DNA from: an uncultured Lachnospiraceae bacterium
GTDB lineage: Bacteria > Bacillota > Clostridia > Lachnospirales > Lachnospiraceae
Assembly (NCBI GenBank): GCA_947630485.1
Contig: CANRHU010000005.1
Location: 1-64,000, forward strand
Reading direction: 5' to 3'
Length of the DNA: 64,000 bases
In this document: one piece after another, positions 28,983 to 58,866 of the stretch
Layout of the letters: each line of letters starts with the position of its first letter
Position numbering within the stretch: position 1 is the first letter of the stretch
Position numbers and translations under genes: made by a program
Notes under the pieces: model-generated
The model's database searches: none
What the model was told of the DNA's origin: nothing
Seen by the model: the letters and a program-made list of their open reading frames with translations, nothing else

Positions 28983-30878
28983 CTAATTCTCCCCATTCTT
29001 CCAGTCCGGCAGCTCATCCAGCGTGATGACCCGCTCGTGGTTATAAACCTTCTGAACCATATATTCCTCTGTATATTTGTTGGACAGTCTGTGGTAGCCG
29101 TTATCGGCCATAAACTCGCCGCTCCAGGTGCAGAACCAGGCCCAGGGCGCCTGATCACGCCAGGCCAGATCCGGATCGAAGAGACAGCCGTTCTCCGAAA
29201 GCGCCACGATCTTGGCAGTCTCCGGGTAATGATCCGGGTACTCGACGGCCTCCACGAACTTCCCGCTCTGGGAAGAGTATACATAATTGCCGGGATAAAT
29301 GTCTTCGCCGATAATATCCACATATTCGTCGCCGGGATACCAGTCGGCAGACTGGCCGTTCCAGACCCAGATCAGGTTGTTCAGGCCGTGAACATTCGTC
29401 AGCCGGTCGTAGAGCAGCTTCCACAGCTCCTTACAGGGTTCCGGTCCTGCCGCGCCCCACCAGAACCAGCCGCCGGACGCCTCGTGAAGCGGCCGGAAGA
29501 GAACCGGAATGTCCGCGTCCTGAAGGATCTGAAGCTGCTCTGCGATAACGTCGATATCGTCCAGAAGCAGCGCGTAGCCCTCCTCATCTCTGCCGTCCAT
29601 AATAGCCGCCAGATCGATGTCCGTGCTGTCCGTGTAAAATGTCTTGTACCACAGGGCTCCGGATTTCGTGTATTTGTCCGGCGCCCCCCAGTGCCAGCAG
29701 AAGGTGACGATCCCGCCCAGCTTATCGTACTCAATGGCCTGTTCGATGGATTTTCCGACCGCCCCGTGGCTGGCAAATGTCGGCGAATAGTTCATGAGAT
29801 CAAGCCCCAGGATCGCCGGCTGCCTGCCGCCGGTGGCGTTCTTGATTGCAACCAGCTCAGGGCTTGCCGTGCCGTTGTCCGCCTGCTGCCCCGACAGGGT
29901 GTATTCGCCGTAGATCGACGTCAGGTATTTCATTAAATTTGCCGCGCTTTGCGAAACGTTCGGATTGATCAGCACCGGCTCCACCTCAAAGGTGCTGTCC
30001 GGCAGCCGCTCCGCCGAAGCAAACGTCATGCTGTCCAGAGCGATCCAGCCCCAGTTCTTATGGACGCCGATGCTGTGCTCTCCTGCCTCCAGATAGACCC
30101 GGCGCAACACGGATTCACCGAAAGTCTCGTCCTTCGTGGTAAATGTCCCCACTGTCGTTCCGTCCACCTGGATATCGTTGATCTTCTCTCCGCCCAGGCC
30201 GGCGCTCACCACATGGATGTCGAAGCTGCCGCTGTAGGGCACATCTACGGTGAAGGAGCAGCTGTCTCCCTCGTCCTCAAATCCGGTAAGATAACCTTCT
30301 CCGGTGTAACCTTTTATTGAATGATCCAGCTTTACTTTGCCGGTTGTCGTCATCTCTGATGCGTCAAACATATAAGAAATTGCCTCCTGTTGTTCCTCCG
30401 CCTGCGCAGTATTCGCCGCGCCGCTTCCGTTACCGCCGTTCGCGGCCGCGTCACTTTCATCGAAGCCCGCGTTCTCTGCACCGTCTGCAGATGCGGTGCC
30501 TTTATCATCAACCGCATTGCCAGTACCGCCTGCTGCTCCCACAGTATCCGTCAGAGCATCTAACGTACCATTCCCACCGGGCATGTCCGTTCCCGAATTT
30601 CCGGCAGATCCGCTCTCCGTCGCCGCGAAGGCAGCTGTTTCCTGCCCCGGCGCCGCCTGCCCCGCCGCAGTCTGCCCCATCGTCTCCGCAGGCGTACCGC
30701 CGTTGCCGCAGCCGCCGATGCACACTGCCAGCAGGCATGCCGCCAAAACGGCGCTGACACGGCGTCCCCGTAAATTTATAAGAACACTCCCTCTCCGGTT
30801 CTTAATACTGTCATTTTTTTTCCCGCTCTTCATTTCTCTGCTCTTCATCTCTCCGGCCTTCATCTCTCCGCTCCTCAC
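28983..30878 (-). CDS. GH26 beta-mannanase lipoprotein with N-terminal CBM35-like domain
   Basis: Lipobox CIGGCGN; CBM35-like MFDASEMTTTGKVKLDHSIKGYTGEGYLTGFEDEGDSCSFTVDVPYSG; GH26 VLFRPLHEASGGWFWWG, LIWVWNGQSADWYPGDEYVDIIGEDIYPG, IVALSENG. Start ambiguous (30878 GTG, 30863, 30848 or 30833 ATG). Confidence 0.9.
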   Translation of the reverse strand: MRSGEMKAGEMKSREMKSGKKNDSIKNRRGSVLINLRGRRVSAVLAACLLAVCIGGCGNGGTPAETMGQTAAGQAAPGQETAAFAATESGSAGNSGTDMPGGNGTLDALTDTVGAAGGTGNAVDDKGTASADGAENAGFDESDAAANGGNGSGAANTAQAEEQQEAISYMFDASEMTTTGKVKLDHSIKGYTGEGYLTGFEDEGDSCSFTVDVPYSGSFDIHVVSAGLGGEKINDIQVDGTTVGTFTTKDETFGESVLRRVYLEAGEHSIGVHKNWGWIALDSMTFASAERLPDSTFEVEPVLINPNVSQSAANLMKYLTSIYGEYTLSGQQADNGTASPELVAIKNATGGRQPAILGLDLMNYSPTFASHGAVGKSIEQAIEYDKLGGIVTFCWHWGAPDKYTKSGALWYKTFYTDSTDIDLAAIMDGRDEEGYALLLDDIDVIAEQLQILQDADIPVLFRPLHEASGGWFWWGAAGPEPCKELWKLLYDRLTNVHGLNNLIWVWNGQSADWYPGDEYVDIIGEDIYPGNYVYSSQSGKFVEAVEYPDHYPETAKIVALSENGCLFDPDLAWRDQAPWAWFCTWSGEFMADNGYHRLSNKYTEEYMVQKVYNHERVITLDELPDWKNGEN

Positions 30879-32001: not shown

Positions 32002-33507
32002 TTACTGCTGACCGCCGGTCAGCGCGTCGATGGCGTCCTGAGCCTTCTGCTTGTTGGCCTCGATCGCCTGAGACACGCTCATCTCCTTATTAACAACAAC
32101 TGCGTAGAAGACGTCGCCCATCGGGAAGTTGGTCACCTGATCCGCGAAATCGTTGTTGTTCCTGGCCTTATAGCCTTCCTCGTAAGCCAGCTCCAGCTGT
32201 TCCTCATCCACGAATGCGGACTCGAACCAGGCAGGATCATCACGGTAGGAGACATCTCCCAGGAACCAGTTGTTCAGCTCTTCGAAGATCTCATAGACAG
32301 AAGTCGCGTCCTCCACGCCGACCGGGATGAAGTACGGCTGCGGGATCTCCATTGGCGTCATGGTGCCGTCGCCGCTGGGGCCTACGGGAGCCGGGCAGAT
32401 ACGAACCTCGTAATCGATATCGCGGCCTACCAGCTGATAGGTGTTCGCGAAAGCAAACGCAACCTTGTTCTCCCAGAGAGCGTTCTCGTTGTCAGACCAG
32501 TCATCGGTATTAAAGGGTCTCGCGGTGCCGTCCACATTGTACAGACGGTCGATGAAGTTAAAGGTCTCGATGCTCTTGGGATCGCTTAAACCTTCGGTAA
32601 AGCCGCCGGCTACCTCAGCGTTGTTGGAAGCCAGGAATCCCTTGATGGCTCTTGTAAACACATCGCCGAATCCGTACACATCCGTGTTGCCGTCGCCGTC
32701 AGTATCGCGGGTCAGCGTCGAGCAGTACTCCGCGAATTTATCCCAGGTCCACTCGCCTCTTGCAGCCAGATCTTCCGGGGCCTCCAGACCCATCTCATCC
32801 AGCATGTCCGCGTTGTAAGCCATGAACGTAGCGCCGGAAGGAATGGTGGTGCTGGGGAAGAAGAAATAGTCGTCGTCGCCCAGCACGGCCGCTCTTGTCA
32901 GCACGTTCTGATCGTTTAAGATGTCAGAATCCGCAGGCGCGTAGCTGGAGATTTTCTGGATATAACCGTTGGAGAACGGAGCAAGGCCGAACTGATACTG
33001 GCACAGATAGATATCGCAGTCCGGCGTGCCGTTGGTAACGGAGGTGTTGATGCTGCTGATAATGCCGTCCCAGCCCAGGTTCACATAGTCAATCTTGCAG
33101 TTCCATTTCTCCTCAACCGCGCGGACCGCGTCCAGCTTCATCTGCTCGGTCTCCGCATTGTCGTAGGCACCGCCGGCTGCCGTGATATCTTCCAGTGTCT
33201 GGTATTCGCTGTCCTCAAAGATATCCCACCAGACGCCGATCTTGATGGTACGTCCGCCCAGATCCTTGCCCTCATAATTGCTGTATGAGACCCCTGCTAC
33301 CCCCCCGTCATCCGCAGCAGCAGTCTCTTCCTCTGCCGCTGCAGCCGTGGTTTCCGTATTGCCGGCCGCAGCCGCTGTGGTCTCCGCGCTGCCGCCGGCC
33401 GCTGTCGTCGTGGTCGCCGCGTCTCCGCCTCCGCAGGCCGCCAGAGAAACTGCCATGGCTCCGGCCATCAGGATGGAGCCGATTCTTCCAAGTGTCCTTT
33501 TCTTCAT
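32002..33507 (-). CDS. sugar ABC transporter solute-binding lipoprotein
   Basis: Lipobox LAACGGG, Ala/Thr-rich linker, SBP_bac_1-like fold (TIKIGVWWDIF...GWDGIISSINTSVTNGTPDCDIYL). Confidence 0.92.
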   Translation of the reverse strand: MKKRTLGRIGSILMAGAMAVSLAACGGGDAATTTTAAGGSAETTAAAAGNTETTAAAAEEETAAADDGGVAGVSYSNYEGKDLGGRTIKIGVWWDIFEDSEYQTLEDITAAGGAYDNAETEQMKLDAVRAVEEKWNCKIDYVNLGWDGIISSINTSVTNGTPDCDIYLCQYQFGLAPFSNGYIQKISSYAPADSDILNDQNVLTRAAVLGDDDYFFFPSTTIPSGATFMAYNADMLDEMGLEAPEDLAARGEWTWDKFAEYCSTLTRDTDGDGNTDVYGFGDVFTRAIKGFLASNNAEVAGGFTEGLSDPKSIETFNFIDRLYNVDGTARPFNTDDWSDNENALWENKVAFAFANTYQLVGRDIDYEVRICPAPVGPSGDGTMTPMEIPQPYFIPVGVEDATSVYEIFEELNNWFLGDVSYRDDPAWFESAFVDEEQLELAYEEGYKARNNNDFADQVTNFPMGDVFYAVVVNKEMSVSQAIEANKQKAQDAIDALTGGQQ

Positions 33508-33627: not shown

Positions 33628-34683
33628 TTAACCGACGATACCGCTTCGCTCCACGCCTTCTACGAATTTCTTCTGCAGCAGGCAGTAGATGACGATCACA
33701 GGCACCAGCATCATGATGATGCCGGCGTACAGGTACAGCTGGGTCACGGCGCTGTCATGGATCTCCAGCGAGTTGGCGATGGTCTCCTGGACCGTGGAGA
33801 TCCGCATGCTCATCAGCAGCCGGTTGCTGATACCGAACAGCTTTGCGTAAAACGTATCATTGTACTGCCACACCATGGAGAAAATGCTGACCGTCAGCAC
33901 TGACGGCATCGCGTTGACCAGCATGATGCGGAAGTAGGTGTAAAGCGCCCCGGCTCCGTCCACGAAGGCCGCCTCCTCGATCTCCTTGGGCAGTCCCCGG
34001 AAGAACTGGTTGAAAATGTAGATGAAGAGGCCCGACCGCAGCCCGCAGGCAAACACTGTCATGATATACATCGGTACCGGCGAGGTTAAAAGGTTCACGC
34101 CGTGCCCCGTGGTCAGATGCAGGATGCCGAAGATATCGAAGTTGCGGAACTCCGTGTACCAGGGCAGCATCAGGGTGTCCGTCGGGAGCACGATGGTCAG
34201 GACCACACAGGCGAACAGCACGTTCTTGAACGGGAAATCAAACCGCGCGAAGCCGTAGCCCGCCATGGAACAGATGATGACCTGGATGAAGGTCAGCGTA
34301 GCCACATAGGCCACCGTGGAAAGCAGGGTCTTCGGGTACTGCATGACGCGGTAGGCTTCCGTGTAATTCTCGAGGGTGCCTTCCATCGGGAAAAGGATGA
34401 CCACCGGGTTGTACAGATCCTTCGAGGTGAAGAAGGAACTGGCAAGCATGGAGATCAGCGGCCCCAGGATGATGTAGGCGATACCCACAAGGATACAGAA
34501 CTTCATAAATCCCAGAAGGATCGCCTGGATCCTCCGGCCGAATTTCTTCATCTGCACCTGATCCACGGAGGAGAAGGAAAATGCCGCCGCCTTCTGCCCG
34601 TTCTTCGCGGCGCGTCCGCTTGCGGGGACTGCCGCGGTATTTCCGGAACTGTTTGTGATTGCCGCAGTTTTCATTTTCACCAC
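33628..34683 (-). CDS. carbohydrate ABC transporter permease (MalG-like)
   Basis: Six-TM MalG-like sequence with EAA-like loop EIEEAAFVDGAGALYTYFRIMLVNAMP. Confidence 0.92.
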   Translation of the reverse strand: MVKMKTAAITNSSGNTAAVPASGRAAKNGQKAAAFSFSSVDQVQMKKFGRRIQAILLGFMKFCILVGIAYIILGPLISMLASSFFTSKDLYNPVVILFPMEGTLENYTEAYRVMQYPKTLLSTVAYVATLTFIQVIICSMAGYGFARFDFPFKNVLFACVVLTIVLPTDTLMLPWYTEFRNFDIFGILHLTTGHGVNLLTSPVPMYIMTVFACGLRSGLFIYIFNQFFRGLPKEIEEAAFVDGAGALYTYFRIMLVNAMPSVLTVSIFSMVWQYNDTFYAKLFGISNRLLMSMRISTVQETIANSLEIHDSAVTQLYLYAGIIMMLVPVIVIYCLLQKKFVEGVERSGIVG

Positions 34684-34687
34684 CTCC

Positions 34688-35599
34688 CTAGTTATAGTAG
34701 AATACCTTGCTGGAGATCACTTTGACGATCACCGCCAGCAGGATACAGACGACAAAGGAACTGATCAGACTCATGGTCACGCTGACGCTCCAGTTAAAGT
34801 TGGTGAACGCCATATCGTAAGCCTCCTGTACCACCTCGCTGTTCATAAACGCGTCCACGATGGTATAGACCACATTGGTGACAATGTGCGGCGACACCAT
34901 CGGGAAGGTGACGCGCCAGAAAGTCTCATAGGCCGTCGCGCCTTCGATCTTGGACACCTCATAGAGGGATCCGGGCACCGACTGCAGGGCCGCGATGAAG
35001 ATGATGATCTGGATGCCCGACGCCTGCACGATGTCGAAGATCCGCCCGACTGCAAGAACTATGTAGTCCATCAGCGCCGCCGGAACGCCCAGCTGCGTCA
35101 TCATGTTCAGCAGATATTCCACGTTGACGTTGCCGGCGACCGCCGCCTCCGAGGAGACCGCCGTCACGCCGCCGTTCACCGCCTGCTGCGCCAGCTCGAT
35201 GGAAGCCTGAATCGCGCCCGAATTCATGATGATCGGCAGGAACAGGATGGCGCGCATCAGCGCCCTTCCGTGAAACTTGCTGTTCAGAAGGATCGCGATG
35301 AACAGGCTGAAGAAGATGATCAGCGGCACGTCGATCAGCATGTTCCCCACGGAGCTGACCAGGGTCTGGTTAAAGGACGCGTCCCGCAGGAACGCGTATT
35401 TGAAGTTATCCAGTCCCACAAACTCCAGCAGATAGCCGCCGGTTTCCTGCATCGTCAGTTTGCTTAAGCTGAAGCGGACCGCCTGGATAAATCCCTTTCC
35501 ATAGAACCACAAGAATCCGATGAACCATGGAAGGACGAACAAAAATCCGGTGATCGCGCGCTTATCGAGCAAAGACAGCTTTCTCTTTTTCTTTGTCAT
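34688..35599 (-). CDS. sugar ABC transporter permease (MalF-like)
   Basis: ITGFLFVLPWFIGFLWFYGKGFIQAVRFSLSKL and VSKIEGATAYETFWRVTFPMVSP. Confidence 0.92.
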   Translation of the reverse strand: MTKKKRKLSLLDKRAITGFLFVLPWFIGFLWFYGKGFIQAVRFSLSKLTMQETGGYLLEFVGLDNFKYAFLRDASFNQTLVSSVGNMLIDVPLIIFFSLFIAILLNSKFHGRALMRAILFLPIIMNSGAIQASIELAQQAVNGGVTAVSSEAAVAGNVNVEYLLNMMTQLGVPAALMDYIVLAVGRIFDIVQASGIQIIIFIAALQSVPGSLYEVSKIEGATAYETFWRVTFPMVSPHIVTNVVYTIVDAFMNSEVVQEAYDMAFTNFNWSVSVTMSLISSFVVCILLAVIVKVISSKVFYYN

Positions 35600-38169
35600 G
35601 ACGCACCTCCTGTGATCTGGTAACTCATGGGCTCCACCGTCACGCCGTCCGCGCTTAAAGTTTCGTCCGTCTTATTGACATAGATCGTTACGCCATTATC
35701 ATACGTTGCGGCTGCCAGGCCGTTATCCAGAACCTCGTGACGGATCATCTCCGCCCCCTGAACCTTCGAAAGCGCGCCGTTGATCGTTTCATAGATCTCC
35801 TGGGCGTCCTCCAGCCAGGTGGTATAGCAGACCGAATACATATCCGCCGACGAAGTGTACTTGATGTTGCTGGAGTCCTCGTAGGAGAAGGTGAAATGGG
35901 GCGCCACGCCGTACTCGATCCAGCTCAGCACCATTTCCTCATCCGCGTCCTGATCCATCAGGTTTAAGGACTGTCCGGCGTAGTCGATGCAGCCGTGGAT
36001 CACCATCTCATAGAACGGGATCTGCTGATCCACGATATAGAACTTGCTGTACTGGGTCGGCGCGCCGATAATATCATCCGCCTCTTCGAAGCTGTAGGCG
36101 TTGCCGCCGCTTACCATCAGCGTCCTTCCGGAGGAAGCCAGATCCTCCAGCTGCCCGCCGACCACCTCTTCCGCCTCCTGCCGGTCGATGACGTCCGTCC
36201 TCTTCTTGTCGGAGGCCAGCACATCGCCAAGGTCGCGGAGACTGTAGCCGGTCACGTCGATGTCCGCCGCCTCATCGATGAAGTGGGACACATACCAGGG
36301 CAAAAACCGCGGCGACATGATGAAGTAGGAGAGCTCATCATACCAGCCCAGCGTACTGGTCTGCCGCATGGTAGCCGGGTTCAGCGCGCCCATGGACACC
36401 ACATAGCCGGAGAAATACTTGGACGCCTCCAAAAGGTCGTTGAAGCGTTTGGACGTATAAGGCACCTGCTGGAATGCCACGTCCAGAAACAGCTTTCCGC
36501 CGTTCTCCTCCAGGCGCGTGCTTAAGGCTTCCAGCTCCGCCTTGCTTCCCAGGGCCCTTATCAGCTTCACCTTGTCGGCCGCGTCATGGTAGACGCCCCG
36601 GTTGAACCATCCCTGATAATTCATCCGCACATCGCTGATACCGGCCTTATAGAGCAGATCAAGGATCTCGCCTGCCTGATCGTAGGTGGTCATCGGATAA
36701 ACGCCGGTATAAGGCACGCCCATGAGGTGCTTTTGGATTTCAACGCCGCCCAGGATATCCAGGTAGAACGGCGTCTCGCCGCCGGCCGTCTGCTTCGTAA
36801 GCGTTCCTTCCGCGATCAGCTGGCTGCGGTAGGCGTTCGCCATGCCCGAATAATCCGCGTCGTCGCCGTCCAGGAAGGTGTAGGTCACGCTCAGCTTCTC
36901 GTCGTAGATATCATTCTCCACCACCGGCACGTCGGCCTGGTTGCCGGAGACGCCGAACATATTCAAAAGCTCGATCTCGCGGGTGGAGAATTCCACGTAG
37001 GCGAAGTTATAGCTGTTGATATTGCCGGCCACATTGGCGTTGATGATGCCCAGCGCGTCGCCGCCGGTGATCCGGCCGAGGAAGGCGTGGTCGCCGTTCT
37101 TGATGCCGAAAATCGGAAGTCTGGCGTTCTCGGTCAGCTCCGTCACCGTGTAGCTCTGCACTTCCGGATCGATGCCGTACACATTCTGCATATAGGGCGA
37201 GTTCTTCGTCCCGTTGTTGAAATTGATCAACGCGCCGGAACCGTCTGGCACCACGATATAGCCCTCGTCCGCCGTTCCGCCGGCCCCGAACATGGGCAGC
37301 ACCTGGATCCTGGCGATGGTGGCGCCGCCGCCCTCCACGATCTCTCCCGTGGGAATGGATACCTCCAGACCGTTGTCCGTCAGCCGGTACTCCATGGGGA
37401 TCGTAAAGGAGATATTCTCCGCCCCTTCCAGGCCTTCCATATCGGCCGCATAATCCTCCGCCGTGTAGCCGCACTGCTCGAAGAACTTGTTCAGACGGCT
37501 CATCGCGATCTTGGAATCCTTAGCGGCGTCATTTAACGTGTAGACGCCGTCCTTCAGCGTGAAATAATTCTTCGCGGTCCTGGCGTCCTTCGCTTCCAGC
37601 TTATCCAGGATCAGGGTCTGCAGCCTCTCCTCGCTGATCTGAAGCGGGATGATTCCGGTGGAGTTCGCCGGGTCCTGCAGCGTGTAGACATAGCGGATCC
37701 CGTCTGCAAGCTTCTGGATCTCGAACTGCTCGTACTGGATGCTCATATCATAGTTGTTCATCGTGCCTCTGGACCGTGCGCTGTTATAGTACACCAGGTT
37801 CAGCGTAGAATTCAGAAGCTGTTTGTTGACGCCGGAAGCGATCGTATCCTCGTCGCGGTCCGCCGGATTGGAATAAGTGACATGTCCATTCGCCTTTTCC
37901 ATCACGGCGATCTCCGTCGTCTTTAAATTCGTATAAAGCTTCAGCTTCTCATTCTCGGCGGCCAGCACCATGCCCTCCACGCCGTCGCCGGAATCGGTCA
38001 GGGCCGTAAACTCTCCGCCCTCTTCCGTCTCATAAGACTGTATATACTGCTTATATACGTTGTAGTTGAAATACCGGGTCAGGAGCACGACGGCAAACAC
38101 CGCCACGACCACCAGCACAGCCGCGATCACTGCCACGGTCAGCGTTCTTTTCGTTTTCTTTGTCATCAC
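35596..38169 (-). CDS. DUF5696-like membrane-anchored extracytoplasmic protein
   Basis: N-terminal TM LTVAVIAAVLVVVAVFAVVLL, beta-rich segment (GYIVVPDGSGALINFNNG), TIM-barrel-like half (VRMNYQGWFNRGVYH, GGKLFLDVAFQQVPYTSKRF). Family name from recall. Confidence 0.75.
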   Translation of the reverse strand: MMTKKTKRTLTVAVIAAVLVVVAVFAVVLLTRYFNYNVYKQYIQSYETEEGGEFTALTDSGDGVEGMVLAAENEKLKLYTNLKTTEIAVMEKANGHVTYSNPADRDEDTIASGVNKQLLNSTLNLVYYNSARSRGTMNNYDMSIQYEQFEIQKLADGIRYVYTLQDPANSTGIIPLQISEERLQTLILDKLEAKDARTAKNYFTLKDGVYTLNDAAKDSKIAMSRLNKFFEQCGYTAEDYAADMEGLEGAENISFTIPMEYRLTDNGLEVSIPTGEIVEGGGATIARIQVLPMFGAGGTADEGYIVVPDGSGALINFNNGTKNSPYMQNVYGIDPEVQSYTVTELTENARLPIFGIKNGDHAFLGRITGGDALGIINANVAGNINSYNFAYVEFSTREIELLNMFGVSGNQADVPVVENDIYDEKLSVTYTFLDGDDADYSGMANAYRSQLIAEGTLTKQTAGGETPFYLDILGGVEIQKHLMGVPYTGVYPMTTYDQAGEILDLLYKAGISDVRMNYQGWFNRGVYHDAADKVKLIRALGSKAELEALSTRLEENGGKLFLDVAFQQVPYTSKRFNDLLEASKYFSGYVVSMGALNPATMRQTSTLGWYDELSYFIMSPRFLPWYVSHFIDEAADIDVTGYSLRDLGDVLASDKKRTDVIDRQEAEEVVGGQLEDLASSGRTLMVSGGNAYSFEEADDIIGAPTQYSKFYIVDQQIPFYEMVIHGCIDYAGQSLNLMDQDADEEMVLSWIEYGVAPHFTFSYEDSSNIKYTSSADMYSVCYTTWLEDAQEIYETINGALSKVQGAEMIRHEVLDNGLAAATYDNGVTIYVNKTDETLSADGVTVEPMSYQITGGAS

Positions 38170-38185: not shown

Positions 38186-38806
38186 CTAGACTCTCAGCAT
38201 GAGCTCATTGTAGACGCTCATGAAGAAGGAAACCACCTGTCCGATCAGCGAAAACAGAAGCGTCGCCAGGAAGATGATAATCAGCATGGCTACAAAGGTG
38301 AAGATCATCGTGAGCAGCGTCTTTCCAAAGGTGTAGTTGTGTACCGTCATGATGCCGGTGATCACCAGAAGAGCGAACCACGCGATCCCCAGCCCCAGAA
38401 GCAGGTAGTAGAACGCCTCCTCATCGGCCACCACGAACCGGGAAAGGATGATCCCGATGACGAACGTGAAGATCATCGGCAGCATGGCGTAGCCGGTCAC
38501 GGTCACGATATCTTTAAGCCTCCCCTCGCCGTTCATCAGGCAGGTGATGGACCAGTTTCCGACACAGAACAGCATGAACAGAACGAACACGGACAGCACC
38601 TCCGCGAAGCTGTTGATCGCCATGGGATTGACGAAATTCACCACGAATCCCGCGTACTGCCGGTTGGCGGAGAAGCAGATGCCGAACAGGAATACGAACA
38701 GGATCGCGAGCGGCACGCTGCCCCGGCCCCTGTGGCGGATCTCATAGAAACCGTCCATGGGATGCGCGATGGTATAGAACGCGTATTTCAATTTCTCCTT
38801 AAACAT
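38186..38806 (-). CDS. Yip1-family multi-TM membrane protein
   Basis: YAFYTIAHPMDGFYEIRHRGRGSVPLAILFVFLFGICFS, five or so TM helices. Confidence 0.85.
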   Translation of the reverse strand: MFKEKLKYAFYTIAHPMDGFYEIRHRGRGSVPLAILFVFLFGICFSANRQYAGFVVNFVNPMAINSFAEVLSVFVLFMLFCVGNWSITCLMNGEGRLKDIVTVTGYAMLPMIFTFVIGIILSRFVVADEEAFYYLLLGLGIAWFALLVITGIMTVHNYTFGKTLLTMIFTFVAMLIIIFLATLLFSLIGQVVSFFMSVYNELMLRV

Positions 38807-40295
38807 GGCTCACCCTCCTCTCCCCGCGTCTCAGAAGCACCTTCTTTTTCAGAACCTTATTCCATACAACGATAAGCACTGCCAGGACGATCACCAGCGT
38901 CAGTATAGCGTTCAGATGATCCTTGAGGATCTCATTGCGGTAGCGTTTCCAGGCGATGGAATAATACTGCTTGTTGTTGCCGATCTTAAAGCAGCGCATG
39001 GCCTCTTTGTTGTCGCCGGCCGCCAGATAGCTCTTGCCGATGCCGGTGTAGGCCAGCTCGAAGTTGGAATCCAGCTTCAGCACTTCCTTCCAGCACTCCA
39101 CGGCCTGAACCTCATCGCCGTCGTAGCGCAGGCCCACGGCCTGATTGATCAGACTGCCGTAAGCGGTGGGCTTGAACAGATCGATCAGGTTCTTATTGGA
39201 ATCCAGCACCAGCACCTGCTCGCCGATGGTGTCGATCGCTACCGGCGTCGTAAAGGTTCCCTCCTGGCTTCCCATGCCGCCGAAGATATAAAGCAGGTTG
39301 CCCTCATGGTCGTAGGTAAAAATACGTCCGCGGGAAGAATCCAGAATGGAGTAAATGCCCTGATTCCTGACCGCCACGTCCACAATGCGGGACGCGCCGG
39401 AGTACGCGCCGGAGAGTCTCCAGTCCAGATCGCCGGACAGAGGAACCGACGTCTGCTGGATCACGTCCTCGCCGCTGGGATTTAAGCGGCGAACCGACTG
39501 CTGGCCCTCCGAATCCACGTTGGTGGCGTAGACGAAGCCGTCCTCGTCGATCTCCATGCCCGTAAACTCGGTGGGGATGAACAGCTGCTGCCTCGCCCTC
39601 TGCTCTCTCGTGGAGAACCGCCGCCAGAAGATCTGCCAGGGCGAGATCTGGACTTTGATCGTTCCGGTAAATCCGATAAACTGCCCTGCCTCGTCGAAGG
39701 CCATGATGCCCTCGAACTGGTTCTGGGCGATTACGTAGACGCGGTCCGCGTAGTCCACCGCCACTTTGAGGGGTGTGAACACATACCCTTCCGCCAGTAC
39801 ATCCGACTGGGGATTCTCGATGATCTGCACCAGCTTATCGTCGCCGTCCAGCTCCACGACGCGGTTTTTGCCGGAGTCGGCGATGTAGAGGTTCCCGCTC
39901 ATGGATTTATACACGCCCTGGGGCGAGGAGAAATGATCCTCGGTCCCGCCATTGTCAAAGGAGTCGATGACCCGCACCAGCTTCATCGAGGAATCCAGAA
40001 CGACCACCCGGCTGTTGCCGGTATCGGCGACGTAGACGTTGCCGTCCTCGTCGGTGTTCAGATCCTGGGGACTTAAGAAATCGCCGCATCCGATCTTCGC
40101 CCCGGTCAGGGCGCCGTCCGGAATATAGGCCGCCGGCGTGTATTTGATATCCTCATAGTAATCGTAGGTATAAGTCTCATACGGTACGTTCTGCCCGGCA
40201 AACGCTGTCTGAACGCTCAGATCCGAGGCGCACAGGGCGAAGGCAAAGGCCGCGGCAGACGCCGCTTTCACGATCCGATTTATTCTCTTTCTCAT
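38799..40295 (-). CDS. exported NHL beta-propeller + TPR protein with C-terminal TM anchor
   Basis: Signal peptide; NHL repeats LNTDEDGNVYVADTGNSRVVVLD, VYKSMSGNLYIADSGKNRVVELD; TPR EVLKLDSNFELAYTGIGKSYLAAGDNKEAMRCFKIG; TM LNAILTLVIVLAVLIVVW. Confidence 0.88.
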   Translation of the reverse strand: MRKRINRIVKAASAAAFAFALCASDLSVQTAFAGQNVPYETYTYDYYEDIKYTPAAYIPDGALTGAKIGCGDFLSPQDLNTDEDGNVYVADTGNSRVVVLDSSMKLVRVIDSFDNGGTEDHFSSPQGVYKSMSGNLYIADSGKNRVVELDGDDKLVQIIENPQSDVLAEGYVFTPLKVAVDYADRVYVIAQNQFEGIMAFDEAGQFIGFTGTIKVQISPWQIFWRRFSTREQRARQQLFIPTEFTGMEIDEDGFVYATNVDSEGQQSVRRLNPSGEDVIQQTSVPLSGDLDWRLSGAYSGASRIVDVAVRNQGIYSILDSSRGRIFTYDHEGNLLYIFGGMGSQEGTFTTPVAIDTIGEQVLVLDSNKNLIDLFKPTAYGSLINQAVGLRYDGDEVQAVECWKEVLKLDSNFELAYTGIGKSYLAAGDNKEAMRCFKIGNNKQYYSIAWKRYRNEILKDHLNAILTLVIVLAVLIVVWNKVLKKKVLLRRGERRVSHV

Positions 40296-40307: not shown

Positions 40308-41204
40308 TTAATCCTTCATACCGGATGTGGTCATGGTCTCGATGATGTTGCTCTGGCAGATAATGAAGAATGTGATCGGGATGGCCGCGATGATCAGCTG
40401 AACCACCGCGCCGGCTCCCTGCCTGGCAACACCGCCGCCTACGATCTGATACAGGGCGTACTGGAGAGGCTTTAACTGCTCGCTTCGCAGGAACCCGCTT
40501 CCGGTGTTCGCCCACAGGGACTGGAACTGGAAGATCGCCAGCGTCAGCCATGCGGGCTTCACGTTCGGCATGACGATAGTGAAGAAGATCTTAAATTCAC
40601 CGGCGCCGTCAAGCCTTGCGGATTCGATCAGGGAATCCGGCAGCTGCTCCATGAACTGCTTCATCAGGTAGAGTCCTAAGCCGTACGCGAACGCCGGAAG
40701 CACCACCGCCAGGTAGGTGTTATTGATCCCCAGCCAGGAAATGATCATGTAGTTGGGGATGGCCGTCACGTTGTAGGAGAACATCAGGGACAGCACGACC
40801 ATCTGGAACAGGAATTTCTTCCCGGGGAACTGCCATTTCGCCAGCGGGTAAGCCGCCAGGGACGCGCAGAGCACGTGCCCCACGGTGCCGCATCCGGTGA
40901 TGATGATCGTATTCAGGATGTACCTGGTAAACGGTACCCAGGAACTGCTCATCAGCACGTACAGGTCGCCGAAGTTGTCAAAGGACGGGTTGCGTACGAA
41001 GATCTGCGGTGGGAAACGGAACAGCTCATCCAGCGGCTTAAAGGCGTTGTTGATGATCATGACAAGCGGCAGCGCCATGAACACGCCGCAGATGCCCATC
41101 AGCACGAACAGGATCGTGTTGCCCGCCATGGAGCGGTTCAGCTGCTTCTGTTTATGCTTGCGAAACAGCCTGCGTTTTGCTTTCGCTTCTGCCATATCAC
41201 TCAC
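40308..41204 (-). CDS. carbohydrate ABC transporter permease (MalG-like)
   Basis: GNTILFVLMGICGVFMALPLVMIINNAFKPLDE, EAA-like loop LIESARLDGAGEFKIFFTIVMPNVKP. Confidence 0.93.
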   Translation of the reverse strand: MSDMAEAKAKRRLFRKHKQKQLNRSMAGNTILFVLMGICGVFMALPLVMIINNAFKPLDELFRFPPQIFVRNPSFDNFGDLYVLMSSSWVPFTRYILNTIIITGCGTVGHVLCASLAAYPLAKWQFPGKKFLFQMVVLSLMFSYNVTAIPNYMIISWLGINNTYLAVVLPAFAYGLGLYLMKQFMEQLPDSLIESARLDGAGEFKIFFTIVMPNVKPAWLTLAIFQFQSLWANTGSGFLRSEQLKPLQYALYQIVGGGVARQGAGAVVQLIIAAIPITFFIICQSNIIETMTTSGMKD

Positions 41205-42120
41205 CTACCCTTCGAAGCAGCGTCTGGATCAGCTGGTTGGTGCCTACCATCAGCGCGAACAGGATCGCCGCTATGGCGCAGGCGTAACCCATCTCGTACC
41301 GGGTGCCGCTGCCGTAATCCATCAGGTGTGTGACAATGGTCGCGCCGGAATAGTTGACGCTGGGGTTGCCGGCCAGGTTGATGGAGATATCGGCCACCGC
41401 GAAGGACTGGGTGATCTGCATGACCGCGCCGAACATCAGCTGGGGCCGCATGGACGGAAGCGTGATGTACCACAGCTCCTGCCACCGGTTCTTGATGCCG
41501 TCCATGGCTCCGGCCTCGAACAGGCTCTTATCCACGGTCTGAAGACCTGCGATGAATGTCAGGAAACCGGTGCCGAGACTCAGCCACAGCTGGACGACGA
41601 TCAGTATGGGTAAGACGTATTTCTCCGTCTGCATCCACTGGATCGGCGCGTAGGTGAACGCCCACTTCATCAGCCAGCCGTTTAAGTAGCCGTAGCGGTC
41701 GCCGGAGATGATGATGGACCAGACCATGAACGCGTTGCCGGAAATGGACGGCGCGTAGAAGATCAGGGTCAGGAAGGCGCGGAGCTTTCCTTTGAACTCA
41801 TTGATGATCCAGGCGAACAGAAAGCACATCATGTAGCTTAACGGGCCTGTGATCACGGCGAAGATGATCGTGTTCTTAAACGCCTTCTTAAACACGTCGT
41901 CGTCCAGGATCAGCTTGATATAATTCTTCCACCCCACAAAATGGGGAACCTCCAGCATGTTGAAATCGGTGAAGCTGATGACCACCGACGCAGCCACAGG
42001 AAGCACGGTAAAAATGAAGAACAGGATAAAGTAGGGGGCCAGCATTACGTAACAGGTCCGGCACCGGTGCAGATCCTCCTTCAGATACTGCCATTTCGTC
42101 TTATGTTCCATCCTGGTCAC
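41197..42120 (-). CDS. sugar ABC transporter permease (MalF-like)
   Basis: CYVMLAPYFILFFIFTVLPVAASVVISFTDFNM, LFEAGAMDGIKNRWQELWYITLPSMRP. Confidence 0.93.
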   Translation of the reverse strand: MTRMEHKTKWQYLKEDLHRCRTCYVMLAPYFILFFIFTVLPVAASVVISFTDFNMLEVPHFVGWKNYIKLILDDDVFKKAFKNTIIFAVITGPLSYMMCFLFAWIINEFKGKLRAFLTLIFYAPSISGNAFMVWSIIISGDRYGYLNGWLMKWAFTYAPIQWMQTEKYVLPILIVVQLWLSLGTGFLTFIAGLQTVDKSLFEAGAMDGIKNRWQELWYITLPSMRPQLMFGAVMQITQSFAVADISINLAGNPSVNYSGATIVTHLMDYGSGTRYEMGYACAIAAILFALMVGTNQLIQTLLRRVGE

Positions 42121-42123
42121 CTC

Positions 42124-45100
42124 CTAATTCAGAGCGCCGGCTGATATCGGCTTCTCTTTCATACCTGCGAGATCAAGTGCTGCAATCTTAAATCCGGCGG
42201 GAGCCGCGGCTTCCGACAGGCCTGAACTGCTGCCTGCCTGCGCCTCCGCCGAGCCAGAACCTTCCGGAGCGGCCGCGGCACTCTGCGTACCGCCTGCCGC
42301 ATCCTGCTCCTCCAGGTCCTCCGCGGTCGCCATGCCGAACTCCTGGCGCTTGCCGGTGATCTCGGCGTTGATGTACTCGATGTACTCGTTCATGGCCTCG
42401 CGGGGCTGCATCTTCTTGTCCGCGTCGGCCGCCACCACCGCGTAGAACGCGTTGTTCACATTTCTCCATGTGAAGTAGCTGCCGGGCACCTGGCGGATGC
42501 CCTTCACGTTGTTCAGCTGCTCTTCCAGCGCCTCGTAATCATCTGACGGCCAGGGGAGATTGCCGAAGGCTTCCACATTCGCCGTAGGATACCGGGCCGC
42601 CTCGCCCATCAGGCCTTCCATCTCTTTGCCGTAGGAGGTCTGAGTCTCTCCGGACAGCCACCATTTCATGAATTCCCAGGCAGCGGCCTTGTCCTTGCTG
42701 CCGTTCATCATCATGCAGGCCAGGCCGGTGCTGGCGGAAATGTTATTGATCGTACCGTCCTCCTGCTCAACGCCCGGCAGTGTGGTAAAGCCCCACAGAC
42801 CCTTGATATCCGGAGCGGATACCTCCAGGACGTTGTAAGTCGTGTAGTCGGCGATGATGATCGGCGATTCGCCGGTACGGAACCGCTGCTCCACGCTGGT
42901 GGCGCGGTCCAGCTTGTAATCGGTGTAATACTCGCAGTAGGTCTTAAAGGCGTTGATCGAAGCCTCGGAATCCAAAGCCGACTTCGTGCCCTCCTCGTTG
43001 TACAGTTCGCCGCCGTGCTGGAACAGAAGGCTGGTAAACGTCAGCTCCGACGGAAGCATGCCCACGCTCATCTGGTTCTTGGACAGCTCCGAGATGACTA
43101 CCTTCATCTCATCCCAGGTCTTCGGCACCTCGATGCCGAGCTCATTTAAAATGTCCTTGCGGTAGAACATCATCTCGAAGTTCTGTGTCTCCGGCAGCGC
43201 GTAGAGGGAGCCGTCAAAGGAGAACTGTTCCAGGGCGCTGGAGCGGAACCGCGACGCCACCTCTTCCCAGTCGGGGAAAGTGCTTAAGTCCACCGCGGCG
43301 CTTCGCAGTCCGTAGTTGACCGGAAGATCGTTGCCGCTGCCGGTGGTGCCGGTGGAGGAGGTAACCACCGCACCGCCGCCGTTGGCCACCTGCAGCGCCA
43401 CGTCCGGGCCCTGTCCGGCCAGGGACGCCTGCAGCAGGGTGTTCATATCTACCAGCATGACGTTGACATTGATATTGGTCTTCGGCGTGAACGTCTCGTC
43501 CACCAGGGCCTTGATCACGTTGGCCTGGTCACGGCCGCTGCCGACCCACACGGTGATCGTGCGGGAGTCCTCGCCTTCCTCAGCGATATTGCCGATGGCG
43601 TTGTAATCGACGATAAAGGAATAGTAAAGTTTTTTGAACTCATGGCCCAGCTTGCTTAAGAACGAATTCTTCGTCTTCGGCAGATCCTGGTCCGGGGACA
43701 GGACGTAAATAGCGTCCAGCTGCAGCGGCTGGGACTGGGCGTTGGAGATCCAGGTGCCCAGGGCGCTGACGTTGGTCTTAAAGTCGCCGACCATCTTGGT
43801 GACCTTCTCCGTGTCCTTTACAATGTCCTGCAGCTGGTCGCGCATGGTGATGATCACGTTTTCCTCGCTGCCCCGAACATTTAACGTTTCCAGCTTCGCC
43901 AGGATCGCGTCCAGATCGTTCTTGATCTCCGTCAGGTTCCCGGTCAGGGTCGGGAGACGCTTCTCAATCTGGTAGTCGCGGTACTCATCCGGCGCCACGC
44001 CGGTAATACGGATGATGCTGCGGTACGTGCTGTTCAGCTTCGTCACCACGTTCTGCACATCGTTTACCACCTGGGCGAAATCGCCCAGTACCACCTGCAT
44101 TTTTAAGGAGTGACGGCCGGCCGTCAGATAGAAGCGGTACGCCTCGCCGTCGCTGTCCGCAAGCTTCATCATCTTCCAGTCGCCGTCGTATGTAAATCCA
44201 TAATGATCCATCTCGCTGAACGGAACCACGTCGTCAATCATGATCTTGCGGGATACGTAGATACCCTTGACGAAGTTCTGCTTGGCGTGAAGGGCAATAT
44301 TGTAGAAACCGTCCTCCGGCACGTCGAACTCCCACTCGATCCACTGGCCCGTATGGCTCCAGCCGTTTCCGCCGATGGTGTTGTTCTTAAGCGCCCTCGC
44401 GCTGTAGGGAAGGATCGCCGGAGAAGACTGGTCCTGCGTCGGATAGAGCATGCTGGATGATTTCTTCTGCGCGTATTCGGCCTGCAGCTCGATGGTCCGT
44501 CCCGCGGTGTCCTTTGCCCCCGACGCCTGCCAGGCGGCAAGCTGATCCGCGTAGCTTAAGGTATCGGGCTCATTCTTAAGGATCAGGCTGCCGATGACCA
44601 TGGGTTCCCTCTGGGAAACGACAGTGATTGTGTGGCTCCCGGCCTCCAGATAAACGCTTAAAGGCTCTACCACGTAGCCGTCCACGTCGTAGAGCTGACT
44701 GGTGACCCACTCCGGCGCTTCGATCTGGGTAGGCTTCAGATCATTCCCCTGATTGTCCGATTCCCACTCATTCACAGAATTGACCCAGACGCGGGAGAAT
44801 TCCACCTCGGCCATCTGGCGGTACGGCAGCTCGCCGTCCACGAAGAAGCCGCGCTGGATGGAAGAACCGTTGCCCTCGACCGGATAATAGGTCAGCGCAA
44901 GCTGGTACATGCCGGATGTACGGATGTCCACCTGGTACTCGACCATACCGGTGTCATAGGTATAGACGGATTTTCCCGCCCTGCCCATGTAGTCCGTGAG
45001 AATCTCCGGCGCTTCTTTTCCTTCGCTGCGCACGAAGTCGCCGCCTTCGATCTCATAGACATCTTCCGGCCAGACGCTGTCCGGGTACTGAGCCTGGTAT

Positions 45101-45279
45101 TCCTCATAGTCCTGGTACTCAGCGGTGTAGTTGAGCACGTCCTTATAATCCTCCAGGGACTTGTCTGTCGCGGCGCGGGCGGTCATACCGACACTGCCAT
45201 ACCCGCTCAGACACAGGGCTGCAAGGAAGACGCCGGCCGCGAAAAGACATGTCTGGCTTTTCTGTAACCGTTTCATCAT
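42124..45279 (-). CDS. CBM-like x2 + helical stalk + SBP_bac_1 fusion (extracellular solute-binding protein)
   Basis: Signal peptide; two beta-sandwich ligand-binding-like domains (TGMVEYQVDIRTSGMYQLALTYYPVEG; GQWIEWEFDVPEDGFYNIALHAKQ); helical region; SBP domain (RTITVWVGSGRDQANVIKALVDETFTPKTNINVNV...LYALPETQNFEMMFYRKDILNELG). Confidence 0.88.
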   Translation of the reverse strand: MMKRLQKSQTCLFAAGVFLAALCLSGYGSVGMTARAATDKSLEDYKDVLNYTAEYQDYEEYQAQYPDSVWPEDVYEIEGGDFVRSEGKEAPEILTDYMGRAGKSVYTYDTGMVEYQVDIRTSGMYQLALTYYPVEGNGSSIQRGFFVDGELPYRQMAEVEFSRVWVNSVNEWESDNQGNDLKPTQIEAPEWVTSQLYDVDGYVVEPLSVYLEAGSHTITVVSQREPMVIGSLILKNEPDTLSYADQLAAWQASGAKDTAGRTIELQAEYAQKKSSSMLYPTQDQSSPAILPYSARALKNNTIGGNGWSHTGQWIEWEFDVPEDGFYNIALHAKQNFVKGIYVSRKIMIDDVVPFSEMDHYGFTYDGDWKMMKLADSDGEAYRFYLTAGRHSLKMQVVLGDFAQVVNDVQNVVTKLNSTYRSIIRITGVAPDEYRDYQIEKRLPTLTGNLTEIKNDLDAILAKLETLNVRGSEENVIITMRDQLQDIVKDTEKVTKMVGDFKTNVSALGTWISNAQSQPLQLDAIYVLSPDQDLPKTKNSFLSKLGHEFKKLYYSFIVDYNAIGNIAEEGEDSRTITVWVGSGRDQANVIKALVDETFTPKTNINVNVMLVDMNTLLQASLAGQGPDVALQVANGGGAVVTSSTGTTGSGNDLPVNYGLRSAAVDLSTFPDWEEVASRFRSSALEQFSFDGSLYALPETQNFEMMFYRKDILNELGIEVPKTWDEMKVVISELSKNQMSVGMLPSELTFTSLLFQHGGELYNEEGTKSALDSEASINAFKTYCEYYTDYKLDRATSVEQRFRTGESPIIIADYTTYNVLEVSAPDIKGLWGFTTLPGVEQEDGTINNISASTGLACMMMNGSKDKAAAWEFMKWWLSGETQTSYGKEMEGLMGEAARYPTANVEAFGNLPWPSDDYEALEEQLNNVKGIRQVPGSYFTWRNVNNAFYAVVAADADKKMQPREAMNEYIEYINAEITGKRQEFGMATAEDLEEQDAAGGTQSAAAAPEGSGSAEAQAGSSSGLSEAAAPAGFKIAALDLAGMKEKPISAGALN

Positions 45280-45329: not shown

Positions 45330-45358
45330 ATTGTATATTTAACCATTTGTTTTGTCAA
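45330..45358 (-). promoter_or_regulatory. sigma-A promoter for the transporter operon
   Basis: Minus strand TTGACA-17 bp-TACAAT. Confidence 0.75.
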
Positions 45359-45605: not shown

Positions 45606-45658
45606 CAAAAAACTGGAGCAGGCGAATCCGGATGAGATTCCGGATTCGCCTGCTCCAG
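45606..45658 (-). terminator. Rho-independent terminator of lacI-family gene
   Basis: 20-bp perfect stem CTGGAGCAGGCGAATCCGGA-N6-TCCGGATTCGCCTGCTCCAG, minus-strand T-tract TTTTTT. Confidence 0.85.
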
Positions 45659-45692: not shown

Positions 45693-46676
45693 TTAACGCA
45701 CGCTCCCCTTTTCCACAATGAAACCAGAAACCAGGCTGAGCCTTTCGCGTCCGTTTGGCGACTCGATGCGCCTCATAACTTTCCGCAGGGCGGCATCCGC
45801 CATCCAATGCATATCCACCTCGTAGGTGGTGATATCCCGGTTGGGAAGTCCCGGATACAGATAATTGTCAAAACCGACCACCGAGACATCCTCCGGCACG
45901 CGGTATCCGTTCTCCTTCAGAACATCGATCAGATGACTCGCCACCAGATCGCAGTTGCAGACGAACGCCTCCGGCATATGCTCCGGCAGTTTCAGGACGA
46001 TCTCCCCGTCCTCCTTGCGGTCTTCCATCTGCCATTCTTCAAGGAAAAGCAGCTTATGCTCCAGCACGGAACGGCAGAAACCGCAATAGCGATCCATGAT
46101 GCTGCTGGTCGCATGAATAGAACCCACAAACGCCATCTTGCGAAACCCTTTATTATAAAGATATTCCGTCAGAAGATAGGTACCATAGAAGCCATCGGTA
46201 ATCACCGCGTCGTCAGCCACGTCCTTATAATAGAAATCCATCATGATCACCGGCTGCCTGACCCGATTCCGCAGAACCGCTATATATTCTCTGCTGAGCT
46301 CGCCCATGATAATCAGTCCTTCCACCGCATTTTCCTCGACAAAACGCGGCAGAAGCTGATTCCTCTCCGTTTCCCGCTTGAGAATCTCGGCGCTGACCAT
46401 ACAGTTCAGGTCGGATGCGGCCAGCATCAGCTCCTGATACATTTTCCAATAAAATGTGGTGTAGGTCGCCAGATATCTCTCTGAAATAATAACCCCAATA
46501 TTGCGGAGACTGCCGATATTGCGGCGCTCCTGAAAATACCCCATCTCCCTGGCGGTACTGACCACTTTCTCCCGCATCGCGTCGCTCACCCCGCGCTTGC
46601 CCGTCAGCGCATTGTGCACGGTGACCGCACTGACCCCCAGTTGATCCGCTATGTCCTGCATTCGAACCTTCGCCAT
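45693..46676 (-). CDS. LacI-family transcriptional regulator
   Basis: MAKVRMQDIADQLGVSAVTVHNALTGKRGVSDAMREKVVSTAREMGY; start chosen internal to the ORF call. Confidence 0.94.
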   Translation of the reverse strand: MAKVRMQDIADQLGVSAVTVHNALTGKRGVSDAMREKVVSTAREMGYFQERRNIGSLRNIGVIISERYLATYTTFYWKMYQELMLAASDLNCMVSAEILKRETERNQLLPRFVEENAVEGLIIMGELSREYIAVLRNRVRQPVIMMDFYYKDVADDAVITDGFYGTYLLTEYLYNKGFRKMAFVGSIHATSSIMDRYCGFCRSVLEHKLLFLEEWQMEDRKEDGEIVLKLPEHMPEAFVCNCDLVASHLIDVLKENGYRVPEDVSVVGFDNYLYPGLPNRDITTYEVDMHWMADAALRKVMRRIESPNGRERLSLVSGFIVEKGSVR

Positions 46677-46754
46677 AAAATATCCCCCATACCATACCAT
46701 CCGACCCGGCCCGCCCGAAGCGCGAACTCCAGAATCGATACTTAATTTGCTTAA

Positions 46755-46783
46755 ATTATAGCTTAAAGGTGCATTCTTGTCAA
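46755..46783 (-). promoter_or_regulatory. perfect-consensus sigma-A promoter for lacI-family gene
   Basis: Minus strand TTGACA-17 bp-TATAAT; TTTAAGC direct repeats flank the -10. Confidence 0.8.
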
Positions 46784-46837
46784 ATATATCCTCACAGGCG
46801 ATGCAAAATACGCTGCGGATTGCCTCTTCCGGGCATG

Positions 46838-46864
46838 CAAAAAGCGTGCCGCCGGCACGCTTTC
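46838..46864 (-). terminator. Rho-independent terminator of the giant surface-protein gene
   Basis: AAAGCGTGCC-GCC-GGCACGCTTT with A/T tract. Confidence 0.75.
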
Positions 46865-46914
46865 CGCATGGAAACGATATAATAAAATCACTGACTGTCC
46901 GCACACTTTATTGC

Positions 46915-55137: not shown

Positions 55138-55229
55138 TATACTTTCCTCTCTTTCTGCTCTAAATGCAGCAGCCATGTTTGTTCATAAAGCAGATACCCC
55201 TTGTTATGGGTATGATTATAACATGCATG

Positions 55230-57723: not shown

Positions 57724-58746
57724 TTACCTTCTTCCGATCTCCGTATCCGTCGTATTCACCTTGCTATGGTCTTTGATGTAATCTATAATATCATCCAGCT
57801 TCGTAAACGCCAACCCCACATAGCTGTCCGCCGCGCCGTAATAGATCGCGATCCGGCCGCTTTCGCTGTCGTGAATCGTCGCGCAGGGGAAGCAGACATT
57901 GGGCACAAACCCCCGCTCCTCATACCATTCCTCCGGCGTCAGAAGGAAATCCTCGCAGCGGTACTTCACGACGGACGGATCGTCGATATCGAGAATCGCG
58001 CCGCCGATGCTGTAGACATAACCGTTGCAGGTTCCGGAAACGCCGTGGTAGAACAGAAGCCATCCTTCGCTGGTCTCAATCGGAGCCGCGCCGCCGCCGA
58101 TCTTTAAGGACTCCCACCACTCGCTTCCCTTGCTCATCACATGCCTGTGCCTGCCCCAGTATACCAGATCCGGGCTCTCGCTTAAGAACACGTCGCCAAA
58201 CGGCGTATGGCCGCTGTCTGACGGACGGCTCAGCAGGCAGTAATTTCCGTGAATCTTCCGCGGAAACAGCACCGCATTGCGGTTAAACGGCAGAAATGGA
58301 TTCTCCAGCCGCGTAAACGTCTTAAAATCCGTCGTCTTCGCCATGCCGATGGCCGCGCCGTAAAAATCCTGGCACCAGATGATGTAGTAGGTATCCTCCA
58401 CCTTCACCAGGCGCGGATCATAGGCGTAAACCGGCATGAACGGCTTTCCCTCCTCGTCCACGAACGGGATCTTCTCCTCGTCAAACTCCCAGCGAACGGC
58501 ATCCCCGCTTCTGCCCAGATAGATATAAGGGATCCCATTGTTCTGCTCGCCGCGGAACACGCCGATGAAAGCATCCCCGTAGGGCATAACGGCGCTGTTG
58601 AAAATGCGCGCCACATTTTTCAGCGGATTGCGGCCGATGATGGGATTCTCACTGTAACGCCAGACGGGCGCTCCGGTGAAGGAAGCCGGTTCCTCCTGCC
58701 ATGGCATATTCGGAACAGGCGGTGCAATTAATTTGTACTTACTCAT
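57724..58746 (-). CDS. GH130 beta-mannoside/mannooligosaccharide phosphorylase
   Basis: NPIIGRNPLKNVARIFNSAVMPYGDAFIGVFRGEQNNGIPYIYLGRSGD, YDPRLVKVEDTYYIIWC, WESLKIGGGAAPIETSEGWLLFYHG. Confidence 0.93.
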   Translation of the reverse strand: MSKYKLIAPPVPNMPWQEEPASFTGAPVWRYSENPIIGRNPLKNVARIFNSAVMPYGDAFIGVFRGEQNNGIPYIYLGRSGDAVRWEFDEEKIPFVDEEGKPFMPVYAYDPRLVKVEDTYYIIWCQDFYGAAIGMAKTTDFKTFTRLENPFLPFNRNAVLFPRKIHGNYCLLSRPSDSGHTPFGDVFLSESPDLVYWGRHRHVMSKGSEWWESLKIGGGAAPIETSEGWLLFYHGVSGTCNGYVYSIGGAILDIDDPSVVKYRCEDFLLTPEEWYEERGFVPNVCFPCATIHDSESGRIAIYYGAADSYVGLAFTKLDDIIDYIKDHSKVNTTDTEIGRR

Positions 58747-58866
58747 GATCATTCTCCTCTCATTGCTGTATATTCTGTTTCAATATTCTCCTTTTCTACA
58801 GGATGCCGGATGCGCCTGATTTCGCTGACCCCGTCCGTTCCCTCAAAACGTGCGGTTTTTGGGCGT

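Follow-up and report, generated by a model that had tools for sequence, protein, structure and literature searches.

The capture and uptake of large glycan fragments by Gram-positive fibre degraders is understood only in part, and a locus of an uncultured Lachnospiraceae bacterium puts the question in a concrete form: what is the role of a solute-binding protein (SBP) of 1051 residues that carries a long N-terminal head and no lipobox? The window analyzed here is the whole stretch of 64,000 nucleotides at the start of contig CANRHU010000005.1, in which the gene of this large SBP and its immediate surroundings are as follows.

42124..45279, minus strand: large SBP, gene 1 of the cassette, 1051 aa (Pfam, PDB sequence match and relatives)
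45172..45279, minus strand: signal peptide, aa 1-36, with an SPase I-like site between TARA and ATDK and no lipobox (from sequence)
42127..42324, minus strand: Ala/Ser/Gly-rich low-complexity tail, aa about 986-1051
45330..45358, minus strand: promoter-like TTGACA-17-TACAAT upstream of the cassette (11/12, consensus match only)
45613..45658, minus strand: strong intrinsic-terminator-like hairpin 3' of the LacI gene, parting that gene from the cassette
45693..46904, minus strand: LacI-family regulator, upstream of the cassette

The protein is encoded by a single uninterrupted reading frame preceded directly by a consensus ribosome-binding site. The frame is intact, and the coding strand is corrected here to minus, the plus-strand reading being crowded with stop codons. 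A frame error fusing two genes is ruled out by full-length relatives of 900-1050 aa with the same architecture in dozens of genomes. One copy on a draft contig (L067, 4266-7286) is broken by a frameshift, from assembly or mutation, into two frames, one of 372 aa and the other of 675 aa.

The signal peptide without a lipobox, which had been noticed earlier, is borne out by the sequence and by a simple motif scan of the family: the lipobox is missing in 91 of 96 members of the large-SBP family and present in 49 of 54 second SBPs (SBP2) of the same operon type. The large SBP thus lacks the lipoprotein anchor usual for Gram-positive SBPs, an anchor that is not obligatory for Pfam SBP_bac_1. In the same scan, some members showed a hydrophobic N-terminus that looks uncleaved; this would anchor them without a partner and would count against docking by the head. 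The low-complexity tail is present as described, but it is variable and not conserved among relatives.

42325..43569, minus strand: SBP domain, aa about 571-985 (Pfam and PDB sequence match)

The complete C-terminal SBP domain proposed earlier was confirmed by Pfam SBP_bac_1, which matches aa 588-880 with E=5.7e-20 and 73 bits against a cut-off of 26. The best PDB sequence match, limited to the SBP part, is Lin1841 of Listeria (5ysb, E=3e-15), which we take to be a 1,2-beta-oligoglucan-binding protein.

The head was modelled with AlphaFold2 from 76 sequences (aa 40-565), giving two beta-sandwiches with a pLDDT of 94.1 and a pTM of 0.90.

44575..45057, minus strand: beta-sandwich domain 1, aa about 75-235, CBM6/35-like fold (AlphaFold2, Foldseek, hhalign)
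43699..44496, minus strand: beta-sandwich domain 2, aa about 262-527, homologous to domain 1 and holding a helical insertion (AlphaFold2, Foldseek, hhalign)
43735..44079, minus strand: helical bundle, aa about 401-515, inserted in domain 2 ahead of its final strand (AlphaFold2 secondary structure, pTM 0.90)
43588..43662, minus strand: short connecting helix, aa about 540-564, leading to the SBP domain (AlphaFold2)

In Foldseek searches, the sandwiches matched CBM6 and CBM35 structures, with TM scores by target of 0.57-0.68 against isolated CBM6 modules, and hhalign shows the two to be homologous (99.1%, E=4e-19). The model and these matches agree with the two galactose-binding-like sandwiches first read from the sequence. 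The long helical stalk of that reading is rejected on the fold model: the helices at aa 401-515 separate the penultimate strand of sandwich 2 from its final one (LQLDAIYVLSP, about aa 518-527) and are predicted to form a compact inserted bundle. The first 560 residues gave no match in a Pfam scan, a CBM-family HMM search of the window protein brought no Pfam CBM family to its cut-off, NCBIfam profiles returned nothing useful for the head, and a sequence search of the head against the PDB returned designed coiled coils and weak CBM6-type matches, nothing decisive. Among the relatives, 19 of 76 match CBM_35 weakly and 60 of 76 match Golvesin_C weakly; their matches are mostly weak ones to CBM_35, CBM_6, Golvesin_C and GH115_C, none of which appears in the window protein, and a direct placing of the head in one CBM family was dropped. 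Because structures match and profile cut-offs are not reached, the head is predicted to have the fold of sugar-binding modules and lies, by the cut-off test, outside any named CBM family. Stand-alone proteins of 449-544 aa whose match extends over a large part of the head, or most of it, occur in one other Bacillota family (L156 7178-8809, L157 6128-7474, L158 5154-6743 and L159 980-2584), with no SBP domain and no cassette nearby.

The large SBP gene opens a run of nine genes on one strand, spaced by -8 to +16 bp with 120 bp before SBP2; the eight that follow it are listed in order.

41197..42120, minus strand: permease A, MalF/UgpA type
40308..41204, minus strand: permease B, MalG/UgpE type
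38799..40295, minus strand: NHL beta-propeller and TPR protein with a signal peptide and a C-terminal transmembrane segment, aa 464-482
38186..38806, minus strand: YIP1-domain membrane protein with five predicted transmembrane segments
35596..38169, minus strand: DUF5696 protein with an N-terminal transmembrane helix and a GH129/GH101-like fold
34688..35599, minus strand: permease C (Pfam)
33628..34683, minus strand: permease D (Pfam)
32002..33507, minus strand: SBP2, second solute-binding lipoprotein (LAAC), distantly like the arabino-oligosaccharide-binding protein 6rjy

The cassette contains two sets of the CUT1 composition, an SBP with two MalF/MalG-type permeases, and the system is a CUT1-type ABC importer. 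Permeases A-D all carry BPD_transp_1, and permease genes adjoin the SBP gene in the cassettes compared. The cassette has no MalK/MsmX-type ATPase gene; one OB_MalK match over the cut-off lies elsewhere in the genome (G000:C28). A fusion of NHL with YIP1 occurs in 13 of 91 loci and hints at their physical association. In one of the three other cassettes of this genome (L007), the NHL frame is 753 aa long and a separate YIP1 gene is not seen, as in relatives with the NHL-YIP1 fusion.

The AlphaFold2 model of the DUF5696 protein (pLDDT 89) has a fold that matches GH129 and GH101 enzymes; over the whole protein, Foldseek gave E of about 1e-32 to 1e-24 and TM by target of about 0.7, with 5opq as the best match (E=1e-32), and a profile match to NagBb (5wzn) reached E=3e-6. 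In Pfam, DUF5696 is the sole profile to pass its cut-off and Glyco_hydro_129 does not; a PF11308 (Glyco_hydro_129) search of 150 Bacillota genomes, including this one, returned no match, and none in the controls either. Asp645 (D645) is invariant and placed where the nucleophile could be. The profile alignment stops short of the catalytic region.

How widely does this assembly occur? Standard SBPs are single-domain, as had been stated, yet the architecture of the large SBP is common: one scan of GTDB genome contigs gave at least 592 relatives, with the N-terminal part checked in only some. The best 80 of these belong to Lachnospiraceae, Oscillospiraceae, other Clostridia, Paenibacillus, Cohnella, Neobacillus and Lederbergia. 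In the 91 loci with enough downstream DNA, most of them chosen as close relatives, permeases A, C and D, NHL and DUF5696 were found in all 91, YIP1 in 90 and permease B in 87. The four misses of permease B are probably due to over-long NHL or permease A frames that hide it, and SBP2 was missed mostly where the locus ends. More distant cassettes in other Bacillota families have the same core. From Lachnospiraceae to Paenibacillus, the cassette is a fixed unit of eight or nine genes; about 10% of the Bacillota genomes sampled carry it, some of them in multiple copies, and the fibre-degrading enzymes beside it differ. Among 399 sampled Bacillota genomes, 36 have both a full DUF5696 and the head, 2 the head alone and 361 neither (Fisher p = 3e-49); all 36 genomes with a full DUF5696 have the head, and both head-alone cases are on contigs of about 4 kb. 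The large SBP always accompanies this little-studied cassette, which serves many bacteria of gut and soil at loci devoted to various plant fibres.

Two plasmids also carry it in RefSeq annotation: that of Butyrivibrio fibrisolvens with identical gene order, and that of Paenibacillus cellulosilyticus as a variant with the ATPase gene ugpC directly upstream. In the latter (L176, 24966-30430), three LLM-class flavin oxidoreductases lie beside the SBP genes, a context unlike fibre degradation.

The window cassette itself has GH26-CBM35, GH130, GH36, GH2, CE2, PMI-ROK and phosphomannomutase as neighbours, and its position in a beta-mannan locus is well supported.

28983..30878, minus strand: GH26 with CBM35 (substrate context: beta-mannan)
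57724..58752, minus strand: GH130 mannooligosaccharide phosphorylase (substrate context)
58867-60717, minus strand: 616-aa fusion of a type I mannose-6-phosphate isomerase and a ROK-family kinase (PMI-ROK), fitting mannose phosphorylation and isomerisation within one chain
46915-55176, minus strand: 2753-aa surface protein upstream of the LacI gene, with a signal peptide, a repetitive beta-helix-like region, a DUF7601 match and a C-terminal anchor-like segment
62972-63880, minus strand: GH2-like protein present at the edge of the window as its C-terminal part, the remainder lying outside the window or disrupted

The genome holds four copies of the cassette. The three further large SBPs are 28-41% identical, gene order is kept, and the neighbours are GH35 and GH43 in one case, esterases in another and GH43 in the third; we infer the substrates of these paralogs from the neighbouring genes alone.

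These observations, namely gene content, operon-like spacing, conservation, predicted domain folds and mannan context, lead us to consider, with about even confidence, that the large SBP serves a conserved surface complex for the import of plant-polysaccharide fragments, as the subunit that captures substrate and docks. The import of oligosaccharides, proposed in the first-pass annotation, is well supported by the SBP domain, the two permease pairs and the genes of the beta-mannan locus. For the window copy, the probable ligands are beta-manno-oligosaccharides, either plain or bearing galactose or acetyl groups, which the C-terminal SBP domain would hand to the permease pair A/B. The two CBM-like domains and the helical bundle may form a rigid head that touches glycan and/or the membrane-anchored NHL-TPR-YIP1 and GH129-like DUF5696 proteins, contacts that would keep this SBP, which is not lipidated, at the membrane close to the transporters. 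A second importer of the same cassette would consist of SBP2 and permeases C and D, and both pairs would be powered by a shared MalK/MsmX-type ATPase encoded elsewhere. Complex formation, the pairing of SBPs with permeases, the ligand, the docking of the head and the sharing of an ATPase are all points that we infer. Polymer capture by the N-terminal domains, as the first-pass annotation had it, is plausible on the predicted fold. Since the head is kept with NHL, YIP1 and DUF5696 in every cassette beside differing CAZymes, docking or assembly seems at least as much its role as polymer capture.

Median identities over 70 cassettes with all compared parts are 0.35 for the head, 0.51 for the SBP domain of the same chain, 0.57 for permease B and 0.17 for SBP2; permease A was left out because its identities, with a 10th percentile of 0.25 and little correlation with those of the other genes, are apparently contaminated by second copies. 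These values fit SBP2 and the head being the parts most altered between substrates, with between-species divergence mixed in, and the faster divergence of the head than of the SBP domain could reflect substrate-driven change and so speak for glycan binding over docking. The N-terminal domains might then be true CBMs that hold mannan or large fragments, the SBP domain of the same chain taking oligosaccharides and the other cassette genes being incidental. The CBM6/CBM35-like fold, the weak CBM_35 and Golvesin_C matches among members and the mannan-degrading neighbours are also consistent with this. However, the head is not swapped with the substrate, as it also occurs in cassettes beside GH43, GH35 and esterases, it is tied to NHL, YIP1 and DUF5696 in the examined loci, and the window protein reaches no CBM family cut-off, so that we regard this as a possibility on the doubtful side.

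At the other extreme, the head could be a module purely for protein docking and anchoring that binds no glycan, its lectin-like fold having been adapted to fix the non-lipidated SBP to the NHL-TPR-YIP1/DUF5696 assembly. Strict co-occurrence with these three proteins, the missing lipobox and the bundle within sandwich 2 argue for it, but many galactose-binding-like folds bind glycans, a surface that did nothing but dock would not usually diverge faster than the SBP domain and permease B, and head-like proteins stand alone in another family away from cassettes; we consider pure docking unlikely. It is very improbable that the cassette is a surface sensing system in which one SBP/permease set signals glycan presence to regulation and the other imports: the two sets are unequally conserved, as the medians of SBP2 and the large SBP domain indicate, and NHL-TPR and YIP1 are not among known transporter subunits, but both permease pairs are ordinary CUT1-like, the cassette has no dedicated signalling gene, and a LacI regulator adjoins it in the window.

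Taken singly, the parts of the cassette belong to known kinds; what looks undescribed is their fixed assembly, and likewise the SBP with its CBM-like head. In the open-access literature, with subscription journals mostly outside the search, we found no mention of DUF5696. In what was accessible of that literature, we found no paper joining NHL and YIP1 proteins with sugar ABC transport. The portions available of the transcriptome papers on C. phytofermentans list many ABC transporters, the cassette not among them, and those of a paper on a Paenibacillus xanthan cluster describe two SBPs and not the cassette. With three components that have no function assigned (NHL-TPR, YIP1 and DUF5696) and an SBP of unusual build, the cassette allows the idea of a dedicated surface import complex to be tested in bacteria of rumen, gut and soil.

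Compared with known systems, the large SBP resembles CUT1-type oligosaccharide SBPs such as Lin1841 in its SBP_bac_1 domain and its place beside two MalF/MalG-type permeases, here in an operon without an ATPase gene, and differs from them in having no lipobox and in carrying about 500 additional residues at its N-terminus, which form two beta-sandwiches and a helical bundle. Transporters of the GlnPQ and OpuA type have the SBP fused to the permease. Both they and the large SBP hold an SBP within a longer chain; the fusion partner is a permease in the former and extracellular sandwich domains in the latter. The head shares with the CBM35/CBM6 and Golvesin_C/GH115_C families the galactose-binding-like beta-sandwich and weak profile matches in many members, whereas the window protein stays under the Pfam cut-offs, has a helical bundle inside its second domain and carries these domains on an SBP. 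DUF5696 is like GH129 (NagBb 5wzn, ZgGH129 5opq) and GH101 in its whole-protein fold, and unlike them it has an N-terminal membrane anchor, at 12-14% identity. Known Gram-positive beta-mannan utilisation loci of the Roseburia/Faecalibacterium type combine a single ordinary lipoprotein SBP with a single pair of permeases; GH26, GH130, GH36, esterases and an ABC transporter are common to these loci and the window locus, which differs in its nine-gene double-importer cassette. Tentatively, and as a possibility short of our main proposal, the two ABC importers, the large CBM-headed SBP, a membrane scaffold of NHL-TPR and YIP1, and the membrane-anchored GH129-like DUF5696 protein may constitute one unrecognised Gram-positive surface complex. 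Such a complex would bind polysaccharide, trim or hold it and feed the permeases, as a functional counterpart of SusCD in Bacteroidota.
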